Source of the DNA: Nitrospira sp.
GTDB lineage: Bacteria > Nitrospirota > Nitrospiria > Nitrospirales > Nitrospiraceae
DNA length: 39,335 bases
Assembly: GCA_005116745.1 (NCBI GenBank)
Contig: SWDS01000004.1
Coordinates: 1 to 39,335 of the forward strand
Direction: 5' to 3'
The translations under genes were made by a program, and so were the position numbers. A model generated the notes under the pieces. It saw nothing but the letters and a program-made list of their open reading frames with translations. It made no database searches and had not been told where the DNA came from. Shown here in pieces: positions 4,515-38,975 of the stretch (positions within the stretch are counted from its first letter, which is position 1; every line of letters begins with the position of its first letter).

Positions 4515-4540
4515 CTGAGGAGGCGGGGAAGCCTCCTCGG
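4515..4540 (+). terminator. Hairpin after the AhpD-like gene
   Basis: GAGGAGGC (4517-4524) pairs with GCCTCCTC (4531-4538) around GGGGAA, extendable by two weaker pairs. It lies ten bases after the stop. There is no long T-run, so factor-independent termination is only probable. Confidence 0.55.
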
Positions 4541-4640
4541 CGGTCCGTCTTCGTGAAAATCTGGACGTGCTGGCTGTCGACGACATCGTCATCGTTCAGA
4601 AGTCGATAGCCGGCAGCTTCCATTTGGTGCTGGACCTCTC
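4541..4640 (-). pseudogene. Remnant: 3' end of a SAM methyltransferase gene
   Basis: About 90-100 bases here are a diverged copy of the 3' end of the intact methyltransferase gene at 14366-14995. Read on the minus strand, the fragment gives MEAAGYRLLNDDDVVDSQH and then VQIFTKTDR, against MEAAGYQLLNDYDVVDSQH and FQIFAKAER in the intact gene. The normal stop codon is lost and nothing recognisable of the upstream domain remains. It is a decayed paralogue or duplication relic between the AhpD-like gene and the DUF2630 gene. Confidence 0.75.
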
Positions 4641-4750
4641 GCAGCGCGCCGGGGAATACACGTTGGCTAGAACATCAGTTGACCGCAGTTTCGGGTGAGC
4701 GTAACATCACAACGTGACGGTTCCGATCACGTTGCGTTGGAGGATTCAGG

Positions 4751-14365: not shown

Positions 14366-14995
14366 CTACCGCTCTGCCTTCGCGAAAATCTGGAAGTGCT
14401 GGCTGTCGACGACATCGTAATCGTTCAGAAGCTGATAGCCGGCGGCTTCCATTTCGCGTCGGACCTCTTCTTTCGGGGTTCTGTACCCAAACATATCGGA
14501 AAAGAACCCTCGAGGATGAAAATCGAGAATCGCGACGCGACCGCCCGGTCGTAGCGATGAGGCGAGGGACCGAAAATAGCCCACTCGATCGTTTATGTCA
14601 TGATAGCCATCGCAACTGAATACCAGGTCGACCGGCTCCGGAAGTCTTGGATTGTGTGGCTCGGCCCGGACCGGTCGGACATTCGGGGTCCCTCGGGAAA
14701 CCATTTCCTTGATGATCATGTTGATCGAGCTCTCCTTGATATCAACGGCATAGACCGTTCCTCTGGCCCCGACCGCCTTAGCCAGGTGCCAGGTAAAGTA
14801 GCCTCCGCCGGCACCCAAGTCTGCCACCCGAGCTCCCCGCGCGAGGGACAGTTTTTCAACGACCCCTTGTGGTTTCTGCCATACATCCCGTGAGGGGTCG
14901 CTCAGGTCTTGATAGTTCCATTGGGCGCAACCGGTGAGCACTAGGATAACAATCAAGAGTACGTTGATCTGTGCAGGCAGGAGTTTGTGGATCAC
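14366..14995 (-). CDS. SAM-dependent methyltransferase with lipoprotein signal
   Basis: Class I methyltransferase fold: SAM motif I VADLGAGGGYFTWHLAKAVG, acidic motif II GTVYAVDIKESSI, and post-motif LRPGGRVAILDFHPRGFF. Starting at the GTG 14995, preceded by AGGAAGG, the protein (about 209 aa) begins with a short basic region and a hydrophobic stretch INVLLIVILVLTGC, a good lipobox, so it would be exported and lipid-anchored. An ATG start at 15130 would add 45 unstructured residues and has no ribosome binding site. An exported methyltransferase is odd because SAM is cytoplasmic; such proteins do occur in databases but their substrates are unknown. A decayed copy of its 3' end is present near 4.6 kb. 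Confidence 0.85.
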   Translation of the reverse strand: MIHKLLPAQINVLLIVILVLTGCAQWNYQDLSDPSRDVWQKPQGVVEKLSLARGARVADLGAGGGYFTWHLAKAVGARGTVYAVDIKESSINMIIKEMVSRGTPNVRPVRAEPHNPRLPEPVDLVFSCDGYHDINDRVGYFRSLASSLRPGGRVAILDFHPRGFFSDMFGYRTPKEEVRREMEAAGYQLLNDYDVVDSQHFQIFAKAER

Positions 14996-26886: not shown

Positions 26887-28161
26887 ATGACAAAACCAAG
26901 AAAGTTGATCACGGCAGCGCTCGAGAAAATTTGGTTCCAAGCCGCACTGCTCCATCTCGAGAAGGAGTCTCTGATATGTGCTTATGCAAAACGACGAGCA
27001 GACTTCTGGCGGTCTTCGATCTTGGGAAACACACCATTGTCCTCGATCGTGCACGTGCGAGGCAAATTACTTGCTTGCCTGCTGCTGCCACTCATGATGT
27101 TTCTTGGGTGCACCCCTCAAGACAAACAACCACATCAGATTGTACGGCCCGTGAAGGTCGTACGAATCGGCGATGAGGCTGCCGCAGGGGTGATGAGTTT
27201 CGCTGGGGAAGTACGGGCACGATACGAAACGACCTTAGCCTTCCGGGTATCCGGCAAAATGATTGACCGTCTCGTTGAGGTGGGTGATCGCGTGCACAAA
27301 GGTCAGCGCTTAGCGAGGCTTGATTCCAACGATTATCAACTTGGAAGGGACGCGCTGAACGCCCAGCTCAAATCCGCTCGAGCGGAACAGGATTTTGCGC
27401 GGGATGATCTGACTCGTTACCGCGAACTCCTCAACGAGCGGGTCATTAGTCCAGCCGAGTTCGACCGGCATGACACCGCATACATCACCGCGCGAGAACG
27501 GGTAGCAGTGCTGCACGCACAACTGAACCAAGCGACCAACCAATTACAGTACACCGATCTGCTGGCGGATCGGGACGGGGTGGTGACCGCACTGGAAGCC
27601 GAGATCGGAGAGGTAGTGACCGCCGGTCAGCCGATCGTCAAGCTGGCCCGGCTTGATGAGAAGGAAATCCATATCGATATTCCCGAGCAGCGCGTGGCGG
27701 AAATCGAACTCCATCAGAAAGTCCGCGTGACTTTGTGGGCCAGCGGCGACAAACAAATCCAGGCTCGTATACGCGAGATCGCGGCAGCGGCCGACCCGGC
27801 CAGCCGCACCTATCGCGTCAAGGCGACCGTGCTTGAGGGACAGGATGAAGTACGACTTGGGAAGACAGCGACGGTGTGGATTCCTGTAACAACATCGCCT
27901 CGTCTCGCTGTACCGCTCTCGGCCGTATTCACCCCTCAGAATGAGCCTGAGCGCCCGCGTGTGTGGTTGGTGAACGAAGAGGCAAGCACGGTCAGATCCG
28001 TACCGGTTCAGCTGGGCGAGTCCCTGGACGGAGAGCACATCGTCGTCGCGGGAGTCCGGTCCGGACAATTGGTCGTCAGTGCCGGGGTCCAACGCCTGGC
28101 TGAGGGACAGGCGGTGCGCTTGCCGGAACAGGTCGCAGGCAGCAAGGAGGATCGGCCATGA
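26887..28161 (+). CDS. RND periplasmic adaptor, lipoprotein type
   Basis: An adaptor of the HlyD/AcrA class. Hydrophobic signal KLLACLLLPLMMFLGC with lipobox, lipoyl-like halves (GKMIDRLVEVGDRVHKGQRLARLD and LADRDGVVTALEAEIGEVVTAGQPIVKLA), a short alpha-hairpin, and barrel domain ending in LVVSAGVQRLAEGQAVRLPE. From ATG 26887, supported by GAGGGAGAG upstream, about 75 residues precede the lipobox Cys, which is long for a signal peptide; a GTG at 27049 would give a normal-length signal but has no ribosome binding site. Its stop overlaps the next gene's ATG by four bases (ATGA). Confidence 0.9.
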   Translation: MTKPRKLITAALEKIWFQAALLHLEKESLICAYAKRRADFWRSSILGNTPLSSIVHVRGKLLACLLLPLMMFLGCTPQDKQPHQIVRPVKVVRIGDEAAAGVMSFAGEVRARYETTLAFRVSGKMIDRLVEVGDRVHKGQRLARLDSNDYQLGRDALNAQLKSARAEQDFARDDLTRYRELLNERVISPAEFDRHDTAYITARERVAVLHAQLNQATNQLQYTDLLADRDGVVTALEAEIGEVVTAGQPIVKLARLDEKEIHIDIPEQRVAEIELHQKVRVTLWASGDKQIQARIREIAAAADPASRTYRVKATVLEGQDEVRLGKTATVWIPVTTSPRLAVPLSAVFTPQNEPERPRVWLVNEEASTVRSVPVQLGESLDGEHIVVAGVRSGQLVVSAGVQRLAEGQAVRLPEQVAGSKEDRP

Positions 28162-31100
28162 AGGATTTCAATCTAAGCGAGTGGGTACTCACACATCGCT
28201 CCACCACCGGGTTTCTCATGGTGCTGGTGCTGTTCGGGGGGATTTTCGCCTATTTCCAGCTGGGACAAAGGGAAGACCCGGAGTTCACTTTCCGGGTGAT
28301 GGTCGTGAAAACCCTTTACCCCGGGGCGACCGCTGCGGAAACGGAGCAACAGGTGACCGACCGCTTGGAAAAGAAAATCCAGGAACTGCCCAACCTTGAC
28401 ATCCTCCGTAGTTACTCGAAATCCGGCGAATCGGTGATTTTCGTTACGCCTCGCGAGGACACGCCGCCCAAGGAGATTCCGAATCTCTGGTATCAAGTTC
28501 GCAAAAAAGTCGGTGATATCCGCCTAAGCTTGCCGGCGGGCATCGTCGGTCCCTTTTTCAACGACGAGTTCGGCGACACCTATAGCCTCCTCTATGCCTT
28601 TTCTGGGAGAGGTTTCAGCTATGCCGAGTTGAAAACTGCGGCAGATTCGGCTCGCCAGCAGATCTTGCGCGTCAAGGATGTCGAGAAAGTCGATCTCATC
28701 GGCGTCCAAGACGAAAAGATTTATGTCGAGTTTTCCGACAAGAAGCTGGCCGAATTGAATCTGGACACTGCGGTGGTCGCCCAGGTGCTCCAGGCGCAGA
28801 ATAGCATGGTGCCAGCGGGAACCGTGTTTTCTTCACAACATAACCTCCCCATACGACTGACGGGCTCCTTCGACTCGGTGGATAGCGTGGCAAACCTGGC
28901 GGTGCGCATCGAAGGTCGGACCATCAGGGTCAGTGATTTCGCCAAAGTGACCCGGGGCTACACTGATCCACCGGAATTCAAGATGCACTTCAACGGCAAG
29001 GCAGTCATCGGGCTCGGCGTCACCATGAACAAGAAAGGCGATGTGTTGGAGCTCGGGAAAGCACTGGAAACCACCATATCCCACGTTGAGAGCGAACTGC
29101 CGATGGGCATCGATATCAACGTGGTCGCCAATCAGTCGCAGGTCGTGAAAACCCAGATGTGGGAATTTTCGAGTACGTTCTTCGAGGCACTGACCGCCGT
29201 GCTACTCGTTGGCTTTCTGAGCCTCGGATTTCGAACCGGCTCCGTCGTCGCCCTCACCGTACCCCTGGTGCTGGCCAGCACCTTACTGTGTATGCTGCTG
29301 TTCGGAATCGATCTGCACCGGATATCCCTGAATGCCTTGATCCTCGCACTGGGGCTTCTCGTCGACGACGGCATGATCGCTGCCGAAATGATGGCGCGTA
29401 AACTCGAAGAGGGGTTGGATCGGATGCAGGCCGCGACGTTTGCCTATAGCGCGACGGCCTTCCCGATGTTAACCGGTACCATGCTCACTATTGTCGGTTT
29501 TCTGCCGGTGGGCTTGGCCAAAACGCAGGCAGGCGAATATACCGTCTCGATTTTCCAGGTTGTGGGCATCGCGCTACTTCTTTCCTGGATCGGGGCAGTA
29601 ATCTTTACACCCTATTTGGGGTTTCTGATGCTCAAGACCAAGGGCAGCAGCGACAGGTCCAGCCACGATCTTTTTGACACGGGGTTCTATAACCATCTGC
29701 GCTCCTGGGTGGATCGTTGCGTGGAACATCGCAACAAAGTGATTCTCGGGACCGTGGCCCTGTTCGGTGTGGGCATCGCGACCCTCACACAAGTTCCCCA
29801 ACAGTTTTTCCCGCTGTCCAATCGGCCAGAAGTCATCATTGACCTCTGGTTGCCGGAGGGGAGTTCCTTCGCAGAAACCGAAGCGGTTGCCAAGCGCATG
29901 GAAGCGCTGCTTGCCAAGGACGAAGATGTACTGAATTATGCGACCTATATCGGCGGCGGCAGTCCGCGGTTTTTCCTGCTGATCGTGCAACAACTGGCTA
30001 ATATCAATCTCGCCGAATTCGTCGTAATGACCCGTGACAATGTGGCGCGCGAACGCGTCATGCAACGTCTTCGACTCGTCTTCGCCACCGATTTCCCGGA
30101 AGTGCGCGGACGTACCATGCGCCTGAACGTCGGACCACCGATGGATTATCCGCTCGTGTTCAGGGTATTCGGTGAAGATCCCAAGATCGTTCGTGGCATC
30201 GCCGACCGGGTAGCCGAGGTCGTGCGCGCTAACCCCAACGCGGTCGATGTAAATGACGACTGGCATGATCGCATTCCTTCGTCTCGCCTTGTCCTGGATC
30301 AAGACAAAGCACGTGCACTTGGTGTCGCAACTTCGAGTTTGTCGCAAGCCTTGCAAGCACATTATACGGGAATTCCCGTTGGACAGTTCCGCGAGGATGA
30401 TAAGCTCATCGACATTATTTGGAGGGCGCAAAAGAACTTGCGCGGCGCCGCCGATGATTTGCCCAATGTCACTGTTCGGACGGCCAACGGTAGATCGGCA
30501 CCACTGGCGCAGTTCGTCACATTCGAAACTGTCTTCGAAGACGGCGTCCGCTGGCGCCGCAACCGCTTCCCGGCGATCTCGGTACGAGCCGATGTGATAG
30601 ATGGGATGTTGGCGCCCGATGTAGCGACGCAGATCATTCCGAAGCTCGAGCTCATCAAAGAGAGCCTCCCGGCCGGCTATTTCATTGAGACCGGTGCAGC
30701 CAAGGAAGATGCCTGGATCGCGCAGAAGTCGATCCTGATCTGGATTCCCCTGGTGGTGATCATCACGCTCATTCTGCTGATGATGCAGTTACAAAACCTA
30801 TCTCGAACGTTTCTCGTATTCGTCACGGCGCCTTTGGGTGTGATCGGGGCCGCATTCGCCCTGTTGCTGTTCGATGCTCCTTTTGGTTTTGTGGCCTTGT
30901 TCGGCATCATCGCCTTGGCCGGCATGATCATGCGAAACTCCTTGATTCTGGTGGACCAGATCGAACAGGACGAAAGGGCCGGGCGGGATACCTGGACTGC
31001 CATTGTAGAATCGACCGTCCGGCGGTTCAGACCCATTCTGTTGACTGCGGCGGCGGCGATCCTGGCAATGATTCCATTGTCACGCAACGATTTCTTCGGG

Positions 31101-32756
31101 CCGCAAGCTATCGCCATCATGGGCGGACTCACCATCGCGACCATACTGACCGTGTTCTTCCTGCCCGCGTTGTATGCGGCCTGGTTTCGGGTCACACGGA
31201 ACCGTGCTCACGCTGATGGGTCGCCGGCAGGGTCGAATGAAATTCTATTCCCCAGGGATTCAGTCCAGGTTGATGGAGCGATTGCCGCGACGACGCGCCA
31301 TTCACTGCCGCTTGTCGTCCTGATGATCTTCATGTTCGCAGGGTGTACACCGACCCGGATGAGTGATCGGGTGCCAGTATCGACTCCGACGGATTGGTCG
31401 CATGCCCCAGTTGTTCAAGACAATTCCAATCAGGCTGATCTCAAAGAATGGTGGCAAGGATTTCACGATCCACTTTTGAACGAGTTGATCAGCCAAGCAT
31501 TAGCCGCGAACCACGATCTTAGAATCGCAACGGCTCGCGTTCGCGAGGCCAACGCGATCATCACTGTCGCGGAATCAGCACTCTATCCCAGCGTTGATTT
31601 TTTTACGTCGGGCGGGCGAGAAAAGCGGATTGACCGCATTATCCCGGTACCGGGCAGGCAGGGGATAGAGCTAACCACCCCCACCGCGAATGTCATTACC
31701 GGTGGTCTTGCTGCACGGTGGGAGATCGATATTTTCGGTGCGAGGCGTCTTGAGGCTGAGGCAACAGGTGCTCAGGCCGCTGGAACCAAAGAGGAACGGC
31801 ATGGAGTGCAAGTGGGATTGCTCGCTCAGGTGGCGACGAACTATCTGGAACTACGCGGCGCACAGGAACGGACAGCGATTCTGCGCGAAAACATCGACAT
31901 CCAGCGGGAAAGGCTCAGAACTCTGCGGGCGTTTTATCGTGCGGGTTTAACGAACGAAACCGAAGTGTTCCGGCAGGAAACCTTACTCCATAGCACCGAG
32001 AGTGCTCTTCCTGGATTGAAGGCAGCGGAGGTCACTCTGATCCATCGCCTCAGCGTGTTGCTGGGCGAATCTCCGGCGAAACTTGAACACCGGCTTATTG
32101 CTGCAACAGCTCATCCTTCCGACCTGCCCGGTATCCCAAACATGTTACCTTCAAGCCTGCTACTACAACGGCCTGATCTGCGCCTCGCGCAAACCGAAGT
32201 GAGTGCAGCAGCGGCCAGCCTTGGTGCAGCGCGGGCCGATTTGTTCCCGAAAGTATTGCTGTCGGCGAGCGGTGGGATCGGCGCACTGGCCATCGGCGGA
32301 TTTCCGACTCTGGTGGAGAGTGTGTATGCGCTGGGGGCGGGCCTCACGGCTCCGATATTCAACGCGGGACGCATTCGGGCTCACATCGCTGCCGCGGACG
32401 CGCGGCTGGATCAAGTCGCGGCAAAGTACGAAAAAACCTTCCTCCTCGCCTTGGAAGACGTGGAAAATGCCTTTGTTGCCCATGCCTCGTCGAAGGAGCG
32501 CCGCGAACAATTATTGAAGGCCGAAACAGCAGCAGAGAAAACGTATCGCTCCTCCGAAGCCTTGTATCAGAGGGGAGCGAGTGATTATTTATCCGTGCTG
32601 GATGCCCAACGCACCAAACTTTCCATCAACGACGAGCGGGTTAAAGCTGAAACCGCCGTGCGTGTTTCGTTGGTCTCGCTTTCCAGGGCATTTGGTGGTG
32701 GTTGGACCATGGACAGCTCAGTAAGCCGTGTAAGTGATAATGACCCGGGGAAATAA
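28158..32756 (+). CDS. RND efflux pump fused to a NodT-type outer-membrane factor
   Basis: One uninterrupted 1532-codon frame encodes two proteins normally made separately. Residues 1 to about 1020 are a full RND exporter: LSEWVLTHRSTTGFLMVLVLFGGIFAY, REDPEF, the TM4 Asp pair in LALGLLVDDGMIAAEMMARK, and final helices ending ILTVFFLPALYAAWFRV. After a ~25-residue linker comes a hydrophobic segment and lipobox, SLPLVVLMIFMFAGC, with the cysteine at 1063. Residues 1063-1532 are a complete outer-membrane factor of the NodT/OprM family: WWQGFHDPLLNELISQALAANHDLRIA, GGLAARWEIDIFGARR, LLLQRPDLRLAQTEVSAAAASLGAARADLFP, GLTAPIFNAGRIRA, YQRGASDYLSVLDAQR. No in-frame ATG, GTG or TTG precedes the internal signal segment closely enough for a separate start, so it appears to be a true fusion. 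Confidence 0.93.
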   Translation: MKDFNLSEWVLTHRSTTGFLMVLVLFGGIFAYFQLGQREDPEFTFRVMVVKTLYPGATAAETEQQVTDRLEKKIQELPNLDILRSYSKSGESVIFVTPREDTPPKEIPNLWYQVRKKVGDIRLSLPAGIVGPFFNDEFGDTYSLLYAFSGRGFSYAELKTAADSARQQILRVKDVEKVDLIGVQDEKIYVEFSDKKLAELNLDTAVVAQVLQAQNSMVPAGTVFSSQHNLPIRLTGSFDSVDSVANLAVRIEGRTIRVSDFAKVTRGYTDPPEFKMHFNGKAVIGLGVTMNKKGDVLELGKALETTISHVESELPMGIDINVVANQSQVVKTQMWEFSSTFFEALTAVLLVGFLSLGFRTGSVVALTVPLVLASTLLCMLLFGIDLHRISLNALILALGLLVDDGMIAAEMMARKLEEGLDRMQAATFAYSATAFPMLTGTMLTIVGFLPVGLAKTQAGEYTVSIFQVVGIALLLSWIGAVIFTPYLGFLMLKTKGSSDRSSHDLFDTGFYNHLRSWVDRCVEHRNKVILGTVALFGVGIATLTQVPQQFFPLSNRPEVIIDLWLPEGSSFAETEAVAKRMEALLAKDEDVLNYATYIGGGSPRFFLLIVQQLANINLAEFVVMTRDNVARERVMQRLRLVFATDFPEVRGRTMRLNVGPPMDYPLVFRVFGEDPKIVRGIADRVAEVVRANPNAVDVNDDWHDRIPSSRLVLDQDKARALGVATSSLSQALQAHYTGIPVGQFREDDKLIDIIWRAQKNLRGAADDLPNVTVRTANGRSAPLAQFVTFETVFEDGVRWRRNRFPAISVRADVIDGMLAPDVATQIIPKLELIKESLPAGYFIETGAAKEDAWIAQKSILIWIPLVVIITLILLMMQLQNLSRTFLVFVTAPLGVIGAAFALLLFDAPFGFVALFGIIALAGMIMRNSLILVDQIEQDERAGRDTWTAIVESTVRRFRPILLTAAAAILAMIPLSRNDFFGPQAIAIMGGLTIATILTVFFLPALYAAWFRVTRNRAHADGSPAGSNEILFPRDSVQVDGAIAATTRHSLPLVVLMIFMFAGCTPTRMSDRVPVSTPTDWSHAPVVQDNSNQADLKEWWQGFHDPLLNELISQALAANHDLRIATARVREANAIITVAESALYPSVDFFTSGGREKRIDRIIPVPGRQGIELTTPTANVITGGLAARWEIDIFGARRLEAEATGAQAAGTKEERHGVQVGLLAQVATNYLELRGAQERTAILRENIDIQRERLRTLRAFYRAGLTNETEVFRQETLLHSTESALPGLKAAEVTLIHRLSVLLGESPAKLEHRLIAATAHPSDLPGIPNMLPSSLLLQRPDLRLAQTEVSAAAASLGAARADLFPKVLLSASGGIGALAIGGFPTLVESVYALGAGLTAPIFNAGRIRAHIAAADARLDQVAAKYEKTFLLALEDVENAFVAHASSKERREQLLKAETAAEKTYRSSEALYQRGASDYLSVLDAQRTKLSINDERVKAETAVRVSLVSLSRAFGGGWTMDSSVSRVSDNDPGK

Positions 32757-34415: not shown

Positions 34416-35279
34416 ATGAACAGTAACTATGCCCGAGCACTGATTCCGTTGATCCTGGCTGGGACGTTCCTTCTCGATGTGTTCATGCCGTGGGGATATG
34501 CGGTCTGGGTTGTGGGAGATGTGTTTGGCGCGATCTTGACCCTCTGGATTGAGTGGCCGATTGCCCCGTATCTCGTTGCGACCATCGGGACGGTTCTTGC
34601 GTACCTGGGGCACACACTGTCTCCTCCTTTCATTCCGGTAGACATTGCCGGCTTCAATCGTGTTGTGGGCATCGCCCTCCTGTGGATGACGGCATGGCTC
34701 GTGGCGCGAGCGAGAAGGGCCAAACTCGACGATGCCACCAGGCGACTGGGTGCGATCGTGGAGAGCAGTAGCGACGCCATTTTGAGCGTGACCCCCGACG
34801 GATTCGTGACGTCGTGGAATGCTGGTGCGGAGCGTCTTTTCGGGTATACCGCCAACGAGATGATCGGCCGCTCGACTCTCACGATTATTCCAGCCCATCT
34901 CTCTCGGGACAGAGCCTGGGAGCTGGCCACAGTGCGGGGAACCCATGATATTCAAAGTTATGATGCCGTACGGCTGACCAAGGACGGCCGATATATCGAT
35001 GTGTCAGTCACATTGTCGCCGCTCAAGGACGAGGTTGGTCAGTTTGTAGGGGTCTCGAAGGTCATCAGGGATATCAGCGATAGAAAGAGGGGGGAGGTCC
35101 TTCTGAGGCAAGCGCACGAGGCATTAGAAATACGAGTGAAGGAGCGAACCGCCGAATTGAGTGCCGCCAACCATTCCCTCCGGATACTGTCCAACCGATT
35201 GATGCAAGTACAGGAGGAGGAGCGAAGTCGGACAGTTGCTGACGGCCCTGAAGATCGACTTGCAAGATATCCAGCATAG
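34416..35279 (+). pseudogene. PAS histidine kinase, N-terminal part (frameshifted)
   Basis: The sensor half of a NarX/DegS-class kinase. Three or so hydrophobic segments in the first 90 residues (LIPLILAGTFLLDVFMPWGYAVWVVG, YLVATIGTVLAYLG, VVGIALLWMTAWLVARA) are followed by a PAS domain (IVESSSDAILSVTPDGFVTSWNAGAERLFGY to VGVSKVIRDISDRKR). A coiled coil (LEIRVKERTAELSAANHSL) and the start of the HisKA_3 dimerisation helix, LMQVQEEERSR, come next. The frame then shifts and ends in nonsense at 35279. The H-box that should follow (I-A-R-E-L-H-D-E) is missing from all frames, so the phospho-acceptor histidine is gone. Confidence 0.85.
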
Positions 35280-35844
35280 TGAGGTCGGGGAGGCTCGGCT
35301 CGGCTCGCTCACGGATAGCCTTGAGCTGGTGGATCGCCTGCTGACTCAAGTGCGGAGCCTGGCGTTGGATCTCCGGCCGTCGCTTCTCGACGATTTAGGT
35401 CTGGTGCCCGCACTCCGGTGGTATGTGAATCGGCAGGCAGCGCGGAATGGGTGGATCCTGTCACTGTCTCTTGAGAGAATCGCAGAGCGAATTCCTGCTC
35501 CTATCGAGGTCAGCTGCTTTCGGGTGGTGCAAGAAGCGCTGACCAATATCGCGAAGTACGCGAAGGCGAAGACGGTCGATCTGACATTGTGCCGACAGGC
35601 GCAGAATATCACGCTTATTATCCAAGACGACGGTGTTGGATTTGACGTCATGTTGGCAAAACAGCGTGCACTGGGCGGACAAAGTATCGGATTGCTCGGC
35701 CTGGAAGAGCGTGTACGGCTGGCCGGCGGCAGCTTTGCCATCTCATCAGTGCCGAGTGAAGGGACCAGGCTCGAGTTGTGCTTTCCGCTCACAGAGCAAC
35801 AACTGACAACGCCGGAGGTCACGGCTGAGGTCATATCGCCATGA
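35236..35844 (+). pseudogene. Histidine kinase, C-terminal HATPase part (frameshifted)
   Basis: Continuation of the same kinase in another frame. Upstream of the nominal start the frame reads E-V-G-Q and then LLTALKIDLQ, the residues that normally follow the H-box. The dimerisation helices continue (VDRLLTQVRSLALDLRPSLLDDLGLVPALRWYV), and the ATPase domain has its N-box VVQEALTNIAKYAKA and G-boxes DDGVGFD and GLLGLEERVRLAGGSF. The stop overlaps the response regulator ATG by four bases. Alone it cannot autophosphorylate on histidine, and no start with ribosome binding site is apparent, so it is probably not expressed as a kinase. Confidence 0.83.
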
Positions 35845-36494
35845 GCCCTATCCGGATTCTGATCGTGGAAGATCATGCGTTAGTGAGAGCTGGTATGAAG
35901 GCCCTCCTGCAAAAAATCGAGGGGATCGAGGTGGTTGGGGACATGGGGGATGGGTTAGAGGCTGTCAAGTCTGTGCAGATGGACGCGCCGGATCTTGTCT
36001 TGATGGATATTGCCATGCCGGGATTGAACGGACTCGATGCGACCGCCCGGATCGTGAAGGATTCGCCGACCACACGCGTGATTTTGCTGTCGATGTATGC
36101 CAATGAAGAATACCTCCAACAAGCATTGCAGGTGGGCGCTTCAGGCTATCTGTTGAAAGGTGCAGAATTGGCTGAACTAGAGTTGGCCCTCAAGACGGTC
36201 GCCAGGGGGGAGAAGTACCTGACCCCGGCGGTTGTGAAGTATGCCATCGAAGCTTACCGCGAAAAGTCTGAAGGGCAGACCGGTCCGCTGGCCAAACTGA
36301 GCATGCGCCAACGCGAAATCCTGCAGCTCGTCGCAGAAGGGCAAACGACGAAAGATATTGCCCAACGTCTGAATGTGAGCGTGAAAACCGTCGAAACCCA
36401 CCGCAGCCAATTGATGGAACGGCTCGACATTCATGATGTGCCCGGGCTCGTTCGCTTTGCGATGCGTGTCGGATTGATTCAGCCCGATTCCTAG
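35841..36494 (+). CDS. NarL/FixJ-family response regulator
   Basis: A 217-aa two-component regulator. Receiver domain with acidic pocket (VEDHALVRAG), phospho-accepting Asp at 56 in LVLMDIAMPGLNG, the Ser of ILLSMYA and Lys of GYLLKGA. The C-terminal LuxR-type HTH is LSMRQREILQLVAEGQTTKDIAQRLNVSVKTVETHRSQLMERL. It is intact although its cognate kinase just upstream is broken. Part of this gene (about residues 128-160) and the sequence after its stop are duplicated beyond the permease gene. Confidence 0.93.
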   Translation: MSPIRILIVEDHALVRAGMKALLQKIEGIEVVGDMGDGLEAVKSVQMDAPDLVLMDIAMPGLNGLDATARIVKDSPTTRVILLSMYANEEYLQQALQVGASGYLLKGAELAELELALKTVARGEKYLTPAVVKYAIEAYREKSEGQTGPLAKLSMRQREILQLVAEGQTTKDIAQRLNVSVKTVETHRSQLMERLDIHDVPGLVRFAMRVGLIQPDS

Positions 36495-36936: not shown

Positions 36937-38631
36937 ATGACCACCATGACGCAAAAGCCCAGCAGGAAACCAGGAATGGACGAGGCGGACCTCGACACCA
37001 TGACGGCCAGCAAGGAAACCATGGAGGATTACACGCTGCGGTTCGCGCCGCGTAGTTACCGCAAGTGGTCGACAGGGGTCGTCGGCATCTCGGCACTAGG
37101 CGGCATTGCCTACCTCGCCGACTTCGCCATCGGCGCCAACGTCGGTATCTCGTACGGCACGACGAACGCGCTGTGGGGGATTCTCATCTTCGCGATCGTC
37201 ATCCTTGCCACCGGCTTTCCCGTCGCCTACTACTCGGCGCGGTACAACATCGACCTTGACCTCGTCACGCGCGGCAGCGGGTTTGGCTATTACGGCTCGG
37301 TCGTCACCAACGTTATCTTCGCGACCTTCACCTTCATCTTCTTCGCGCTCGAGGGCTCCATCATGGCCCAGGGACTCGAACTCGGGCTCGGCATCCCGCT
37401 ATGGATGGGGTACGCAGCGTCGACGCTCGTCATCTTCCCGTTGGTGATCTACGGCATGAAAGTGCTTTCGACGCTGCAGGTCTGGACGACGCCCCTGTGG
37501 CTCATTCTGATGGTCGCGCCGTTCGTCTATCTGGTTGTCAGTCACCCGGAGTCGGTCGGCCAGTTCTTTGCCTACGCCGGTGAGAGCGGCAAGGCCGGGT
37601 TCGACCTCGGCTCGACATTGTTGGCTGCAGGCGTCTGCTTGTCGCTGATTGCGCAGATTGCCGAACAGAACGACTACCTGCGCTTCATGCCGCCGCTGAC
37701 CCCGGAGAATAAGCGCACCTGGTGGACCTGGCTGATCCTGGCCGGGCCAGGCTGGGTATTCTTCGGCGCGATCAAACAGGTCGTTGGACTGTTCCTGGCT
37801 GTGTACCTGATCACCAATGTTGTGGGCAGCGCCGGCATCGCCAATCAGCCTGTGCACCAGTTCCTGGAAATCTACCAGAACTTCTTGCCGGGCTGGCTCG
37901 CGATGACGCTGGCGGTCGTGCTCGTGGTGATCAGCCAGATCAAGATCAACGTGACCAATGCCTACTCGGGATCCCTGGCATGGACGAACGCGTTCACCCG
38001 CATGACCAAGCACTATCCGGGCCGCATCGTATTCCTCGCCGTGAACCTGCTGATCGCATTGATCCTGATGGAAGCGAACATGTTTGACTTCCTGAACACC
38101 ATCCTAGGGTTCTACGCCAACTGCGGCATGGCCTGGGTCGTGGTGGTGGCCTCGGACATCGTCTTCAACAAATACCTGCTGCAGCTTTCACCAAAAGCGC
38201 CGGAGTTCCGTCGTGGGATGCTGTACGACTTCAATCCCGTGGGCTTCGGGTCGATGCTGATCGCCGCCGGTCTGTCCGTTATCGCATTCTTTGGCGGGCT
38301 CGGTGAAGCAGTGCGGCCATACTCACCACTGGTGGCGATTGGGCTCGCACTGGTGCTGCCACCCATCATTGCTATTGCGACGAAGGGCAAGTACTACTTG
38401 CGGCGCACCGACGACGGCATCGCCCTGCCCATGTACGACATGTACGGCAACCCGTCTGGAGAGCACCTGAAATGCCATGTGTGCCACCATGATTACGAGC
38501 GTCCGGACATGACCAAGGCCGCCGTTCACGCAGGCTATATCTGTTCGCTCTGCTTGTCCACGGACAAGACCGGCGAGCACGTACTGCCCGAGCAGACCTC
38601 GCTGGTGACGGCGAAGACGATCACCGCGTAA
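36937..38631 (+). CDS. NCS1-family permease with C-terminal cysteine-rich tail
   Basis: A 564-aa membrane transporter of the nucleobase-cation symport-1 family (cytosine, purine, allantoin, hydantoin, thiamine and related substrates). The N-terminus DYTLRFAPRSYRKWSTGVVGISALGGIAYLADFAIGANVG, the RYNIDLDLVTRGSGFGYYGS block and the TNAYSGSLAWTNAF segment in TM8 are typical; about 12 helices. Unusually, the last ~70 residues are soluble and contain CHVC and CSLC pairs with histidines (KCHVCHHDYERPDM, GYICSLCLSTDK), a probable zinc ribbon. GGAGG eight bases before ATG 36937 fixes the start. Base and codon use look more GC-rich at third positions than in the neighbours, hinting at transfer. Substrate is unknown; the next gene encodes a Tat-exported protein. 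Confidence 0.9.
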   Translation: MTTMTQKPSRKPGMDEADLDTMTASKETMEDYTLRFAPRSYRKWSTGVVGISALGGIAYLADFAIGANVGISYGTTNALWGILIFAIVILATGFPVAYYSARYNIDLDLVTRGSGFGYYGSVVTNVIFATFTFIFFALEGSIMAQGLELGLGIPLWMGYAASTLVIFPLVIYGMKVLSTLQVWTTPLWLILMVAPFVYLVVSHPESVGQFFAYAGESGKAGFDLGSTLLAAGVCLSLIAQIAEQNDYLRFMPPLTPENKRTWWTWLILAGPGWVFFGAIKQVVGLFLAVYLITNVVGSAGIANQPVHQFLEIYQNFLPGWLAMTLAVVLVVISQIKINVTNAYSGSLAWTNAFTRMTKHYPGRIVFLAVNLLIALILMEANMFDFLNTILGFYANCGMAWVVVVASDIVFNKYLLQLSPKAPEFRRGMLYDFNPVGFGSMLIAAGLSVIAFFGGLGEAVRPYSPLVAIGLALVLPPIIAIATKGKYYLRRTDDGIALPMYDMYGNPSGEHLKCHVCHHDYERPDMTKAAVHAGYICSLCLSTDKTGEHVLPEQTSLVTAKTITA

Positions 38632-38693
38632 GGCGCTTCTGTTGCGGTGGATCGGGAGAAAGGCTTAGGCACCTAGGACAAGGAGGACACGCT

Positions 38694-38779: not shown

Positions 38780-38867
38780 TGTACTCATTTGCAACCCTGG
38801 ATCTATATCCAGAGACTGGGTACAAAGTTTTTACTCTGCTTGAGTTCTAACTCGAAGCGCAAGACTA

Positions 38868-38975
38868 TGAACCCGACGGTTGTGAAGTATGCCATCGAAG
38901 CCTACTGCGAAAGGTCTGAAGGGCCGACCGGTCCGCTGGTCAAACTGAGTATGCATCAACGCGAAATTTTGTAGC
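38868..38975 (+). pseudogene. Decayed fragment of the NarL-type response regulator
   Basis: Reads PTVVKYAIEAYCERSEGPT, GPLVKLSMHQREIL and then a stop. It corresponds to PAVVKYAIEAYREKSEGQT and GPLAKLSMRQREIL in the intact regulator at 35841-36494, i.e. the linker and the first helix of the HTH. The receiver domain and the rest of the HTH are absent. Immediately after it comes copy B of the intergenic segment, so about 165 bp of the original gene end have been deleted. Confidence 0.85.

Follow-up and report, generated by a model that had tools for sequence, protein, structure and literature searches.

The systems closest to the locus described here are sensor kinases of the HisKA_3 class (NarX type) with their NarL/LuxR-type response regulators and, as far as the lesion is concerned, pseudogenes formed by slipped-strand deletion between short repeats. 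According to an excerpt of PMC3510030, the phosphatase activity of NarX requires a DxxxQ motif, which appears highly conserved among HisKA_3 kinases. For mycobacteria (smegmatis), and to a lesser extent for E. coli, an excerpt of PMC3519483 describes perfect deletion of the DNA lying between direct repeats. The window, by which we mean the whole stretch of 39,335 nucleotides analysed, is the entire contig C4 (G000:C4:1-39335) of a 3.86 Mb Nitrospira genome in 32 contigs. Like the NarX-type systems, its kinase locus has a PAS domain, a DHp (here a remnant) and HATPase_c, and next to it lies a regulator with receiver and GerE domains. However, the window copy has neither the H-box nor a single reading frame, whereas inspected orthologues carry LARDLHDE(V/I)GQ. 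From slipped-strand pseudogenes, in which one repeat copy and the spacer are lost together with the frame, the locus does not differ in any essential respect; the site merely happens to lie on the active-site histidine. We consider it likely that this is a HisKA_3-type sensor kinase recently inactivated in Nitrospira by slippage between short repeats.

A kinase gene in two frames

The broken gene and its surroundings are summarized in Table 1. Frame A is open from stop to stop between 34368 and 35279, and the 5′ piece begins with a stretch that by eye resembles membrane helices, followed by the PAS domain and the start of the DHp helix. It runs up to ...MQVQEEERSR, continues for 15 out-of-frame residues and then stops. 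Frame B, overlapping frame A at 35203-35279, reads EVGQLLTALK... and supplies the remaining DHp and HATPase_c without the H-box; its first in-frame start codon is TTG 35236. The coordinates at which the earlier note let the two frames overlap, and its readings of them (EEERSR and EVGQLLT), are correct, and the nonamer CGAAGTCGG is indeed read at the junction as RSR and (D)EVG in shifted frames. With Pfam at an E-value of 0.001, PAS and HATPase_c were both matched on the pieces, and HisKA_3 on neither. The H-box with its phospho-acceptor His is encoded in neither piece, and no single continuous reading frame spans the window kinase. A search of its own genome returned a single match to the kinase; the sequence following the junction has one exact match there and another place, on C6, with 3 mismatches.

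Table 1. Coordinates of the split kinase gene and the adjacent regulator in the window
Feature	Position	Strand	Description
Kinase gene, broken, HisKA_3-type	34416-35844	+	1426 bp; two frames
5′ kinase piece, frame A	34416-35279	+	287 aa from ATG at 34416; PAS 4.1e-15
Deletion junction CGAAGTCGG	35223-35231	+	single remaining repeat copy; RSR in frame A, (D)EVG in frame B
3′ kinase piece, frame B	35203-35844	+	HATPase_c 2.5e-12
NarL/LuxR-type response regulator	35841-36494	+	complete, 217 aa; Response_reg 5e-30, GerE 3.9e-18

Twenty-nine missing bases and their repeats

The kinase DNA matched 30 of 59 genomes in a first search and 55 of 79 in a survey of the genus, its own genome being counted in both. 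Twenty of the 21 full-span orthologues from the same genus (window excluded) measure 1455 bp, that is, 1426 + 29, and the remaining one (L107) 1452 bp. When 23 same-genus sequences (the window and 22 others) were aligned, the window was the only one of those spanning the site to show a 29-column gap; L022 begins inside the gap and thus does not span it in this alignment. At each of the 37 inspected loci that these searches yielded, the H-box LARDLHDE(V/I)G lies in an open frame, the set being defined without the genus-survey kinases G084, G092, G089, G070, G071, G063, G062 and G100 and without weak partial matches. The 29-base deletion at the H-box put forward in the earlier note, together with the loss of the histidine and of the frame, is therefore well founded, although the motif itself reads L-A-R-D-L-H-D in relatives rather than the I-A-R-E-L-H-D given there. 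A second, overlapping collection held 67 loci, of which 35, with at least 56% identity, were kept; they come from records named Nitrospira, Nitrospiraceae, Nitrospirae and, once, Nitrosospira. The 32 weaker matches that were dropped include L092, a Nitrospira record at 31%. Open kinases of 483-486 aa with the H-box are present at 34 of the 35 kept loci.

In the 35th, L061, a run of N interrupts the kinase frame, and the H-box stands in another frame. This locus was taken at first for a second broken orthologue (249 aa) and was rejected as such on these grounds; given the loss of frame at the N run, automatic annotation could wrongly label this kinase a pseudogene. Within L061:4001-5600, runs of N occur in both the kinase and the regulator.

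Comparison with relatives also brings out the repeat. In the kinase of L033 the sequence CGAAGTCG occurs twice, with an offset of 29, at the deletion site; L002 has the identical context, and the two are 89% identical to the window at the DNA level. Direct repeats of at least 8 bases at offsets 5-100 number two in the L033 kinase, CGAAGTCG being one of them, and 18 of 134,928 possible deletions (position, length 5-100) would have junction homology of at least 8 bases, so the repeat at this site goes beyond chance. An offset-29 run of 8 bp was found in 3 of 44 distinct contexts among relatives (L002/L033, L022 and L049/L115), and one of 9 bp in none of the 44. For a repeat of 9 bp, the lost copy would have to contain a CGG codon, and CGG together with the second copy occurs in 0/44 contexts. 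Thus, the direct-repeat structure proposed in the earlier note exists in relatives, and orthologues contain the extra 29 bases, but the second copy is demonstrated at a length of 8 bp at most (L002/L033) instead of 9. A nonamer pair at 29-base spacing (nine fixed bases before, four after) returned no stretch in a search of genome contigs, from which the own genome may have been excluded. Simulation from codon usage gave runs of at least 8 in 0.29% and of 9 in 0.07% of cases; the observed 3/44 is higher, and site-specific codon preference or shared ancestry therefore seems to play a part.

The closest relatives by identity have shorter runs, 6 in G067/L031 (91%) and 5 in G102/L032 (90%). With the 6-base version of L031, 254 of the 134,928 deletions have equal homology, among 35 repeats of at least 6. 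The 18 bases after the junction in the window are the same as in L032 and L033 and differ from those of L031, L036 and L037, a match that favours the longer repeat. An ancestral repeat of 8-9 bp we can only infer, because the two closest relatives carry the runs of 6 and 5. The window itself retains one repeat copy, the other copy and the spacer being gone, as seen from the 29-column gap and the junction. In the scenario that we prefer, the ancestor would have had two short direct repeats, most likely of 8-9 bases, 29 bases apart, and slipped misalignment between them would have removed one copy and the intervening bases. The loss of the 29 bases took away the frame and the active-site His, which would leave the kinase inactive and its intact regulator uncoupled from the sensor and perhaps less translated. 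Repeat slippage as the cause of the deletion is well supported, the slippage step itself being inferred.

Age of the deletion and competing explanations

In a tree of the kinase pieces, L031 (Nitrospira sp. RSF12) is the sister of the window. Changes specific to the window were counted at codons where L033, L031, L036 and L037 agree. In the kinase there are 0 nonsynonymous and 13 synonymous ones (0/11 in the 5′ piece, 0/2 in the 3′ piece), and in the part of the regulator common to all five sequences 0 and 4, respectively. Counted in this way, the L033 kinase has 5 nonsynonymous and 15 synonymous changes, and that of L031 has 2 and 19, respectively. Without constraint, about three quarters of codon changes are nonsynonymous, and 0 of 13 thus indicates that the kinase was under selection for nearly the whole branch. 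By a rough hand calculation, the deletion dates to the last tenth of the window branch. The loss of the kinase accordingly looks recent; the codon pattern is also compatible with an artefact or with a minority strain.

As a control, 20 window genes were compared at 60% identity or more with the open frames of G102, G067/L031, G007 and G101, each gene against 1-4 genomes and one gene covered only by a 40-residue end. The kinase was split in every comparison and was the sole gene of the 20 broken against all relatives compared. The other two-frame flag, at the end of the frame 28158-32756, appeared against G007 alone. Flags for the regulator (stretch 38867-38971) and for the gene 14369-14989 (stretch 4540-4647) are second matches, not breaks.

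On the plus strand, 28158-32756 is a single open frame of 1532 aa in which an RND pump (ACR_tran) and an outer-membrane efflux protein (OEP) are fused. The frame continues through the junction at all six loci L120-L125, the window being one of them; the match of L124 contains a single TAA. The junction keeps a lipoprotein-type signal with its Cys (MFAGC, MLAGC, MLGGC, MLVGC or GGWGC). In L127 a stop lies between the pump and the efflux protein, and in G024, G073, G084 and G090 the matches to the two are at separate places. Lipoprotein signal peptidase may cleave the product, which would then be a polyprotein; a literature search gave no paper on such a fusion, judged by title. Its end, at 32504-32530, aligns in another frame against G007 and not against G102 or G101. 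Further downstream, a large membrane-like protein (36946-38664) had no Pfam match at E 0.001, and its G067 homologue aligns 11 codons beyond the window's stop at 38631. The stretch 38867-38971 is 74% alike to part of the C-terminal half of the regulator and perhaps belongs to a second LuxR-type regulator.

The deletion might be absent from most cells, having arisen as an assembly or amplification artefact or having entered the consensus as a variant of a minority strain. The lack of nonsynonymous changes among the 13 in the kinase is what would be expected if selection persists, many of the relatives are MAG records, so the window genome may be a MAG as well, and deletions bounded by repeats can also arise during amplification. 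On the other hand, a 9-base repeat is far below the word size of assemblers, which makes simple repeat collapse unlikely, none of the other 19 among the 20 compared genes is broken against every relative, and no second, intact copy of the kinase was found in the genome. On balance, we regard such an origin as unlikely. Far less probable still is a working gene in two pieces, in which the half with PAS and the half that binds ATP would be separate products, the second one started at TTG 35236 or by re-initiation, and would still influence the regulator. Both pieces are otherwise undamaged and free of window-specific nonsynonymous changes, and AGGAGG is present at 35212 and 35215, upstream of the TTG. 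Yet the phospho-acceptor His is missing from both pieces, and none of the inspected relatives has the split arrangement. Moreover, the 15 bases between the end of the second AGGAGG and the TTG are long for a ribosome site, the usual distance to the start being less than that.

The overlap of the frames at 35203-35279 might point to programmed frameshifting or to a switch that turns the gene on and off reversibly; this reading was rejected and strikes us as scarcely credible. Frameshifting cannot bring back a histidine that is encoded in neither frame. For a switch, the unique bases, once deleted, could not be restored from within, the kinase having its one match in the own genome, and a repeat of at least 8 occurs in just 3 of the 44 contexts. 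Recent inactivation by repeat slippage remains the explanation that we favour.

Consequences for the regulator and the organism

Two residues of the H-D-x-x-x-Q stretch go with the deletion, the phospho-acceptor His and the Asp. Judging from the motifs, the window kinase should have lost autophosphorylation, because it has no His, and phosphatase activity, because it has no Asp of DxxxQ. The ATG of the regulator overlaps the stop of the kinase in the window and in all 10 relatives in which the regulator is covered (11 were examined; L043 ends too early). Translation of the kinase now ends at 35279, about 560 bases upstream of the normal stop, and expression of the regulator could fall because early termination would break translational coupling at the overlap. 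The downstream regulator, called intact in the earlier note, is so as a gene, but its expression may be lowered. It would now be uncoupled from its own sensor. Seven other HisKA_3 (PF07730) matches are present in the own genome, none of them on C4, and these kinases are possible candidates for cross-talk with the regulator. That the loss was adaptive, with the conserved NarL-type regulator freed from its sensor (or the halves kept as modulators) and answering another HisKA_3 kinase, seems to us quite improbable.

The genome has a strong match (2.7e-99) to AMO (PF02461), which we take to be the ammonia monooxygenase subunit A family. Because of this match, and because the nearest relatives are mostly Nitrospira, the organism is probably a comammox Nitrospira. 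Most likely, the locus represents a gene loss that is clean, recent and of an ordinary kind, and not a new mechanism. It offers an example of how codon choice that creates a short repeat can delete the active site of an enzyme, and it cautions that a regulator should not be called "unaffected" if its start codon and the stop codon of the broken gene overlap. If the deletion is fixed in the population, this species lacks a sensor that remains under constraint in its relatives.
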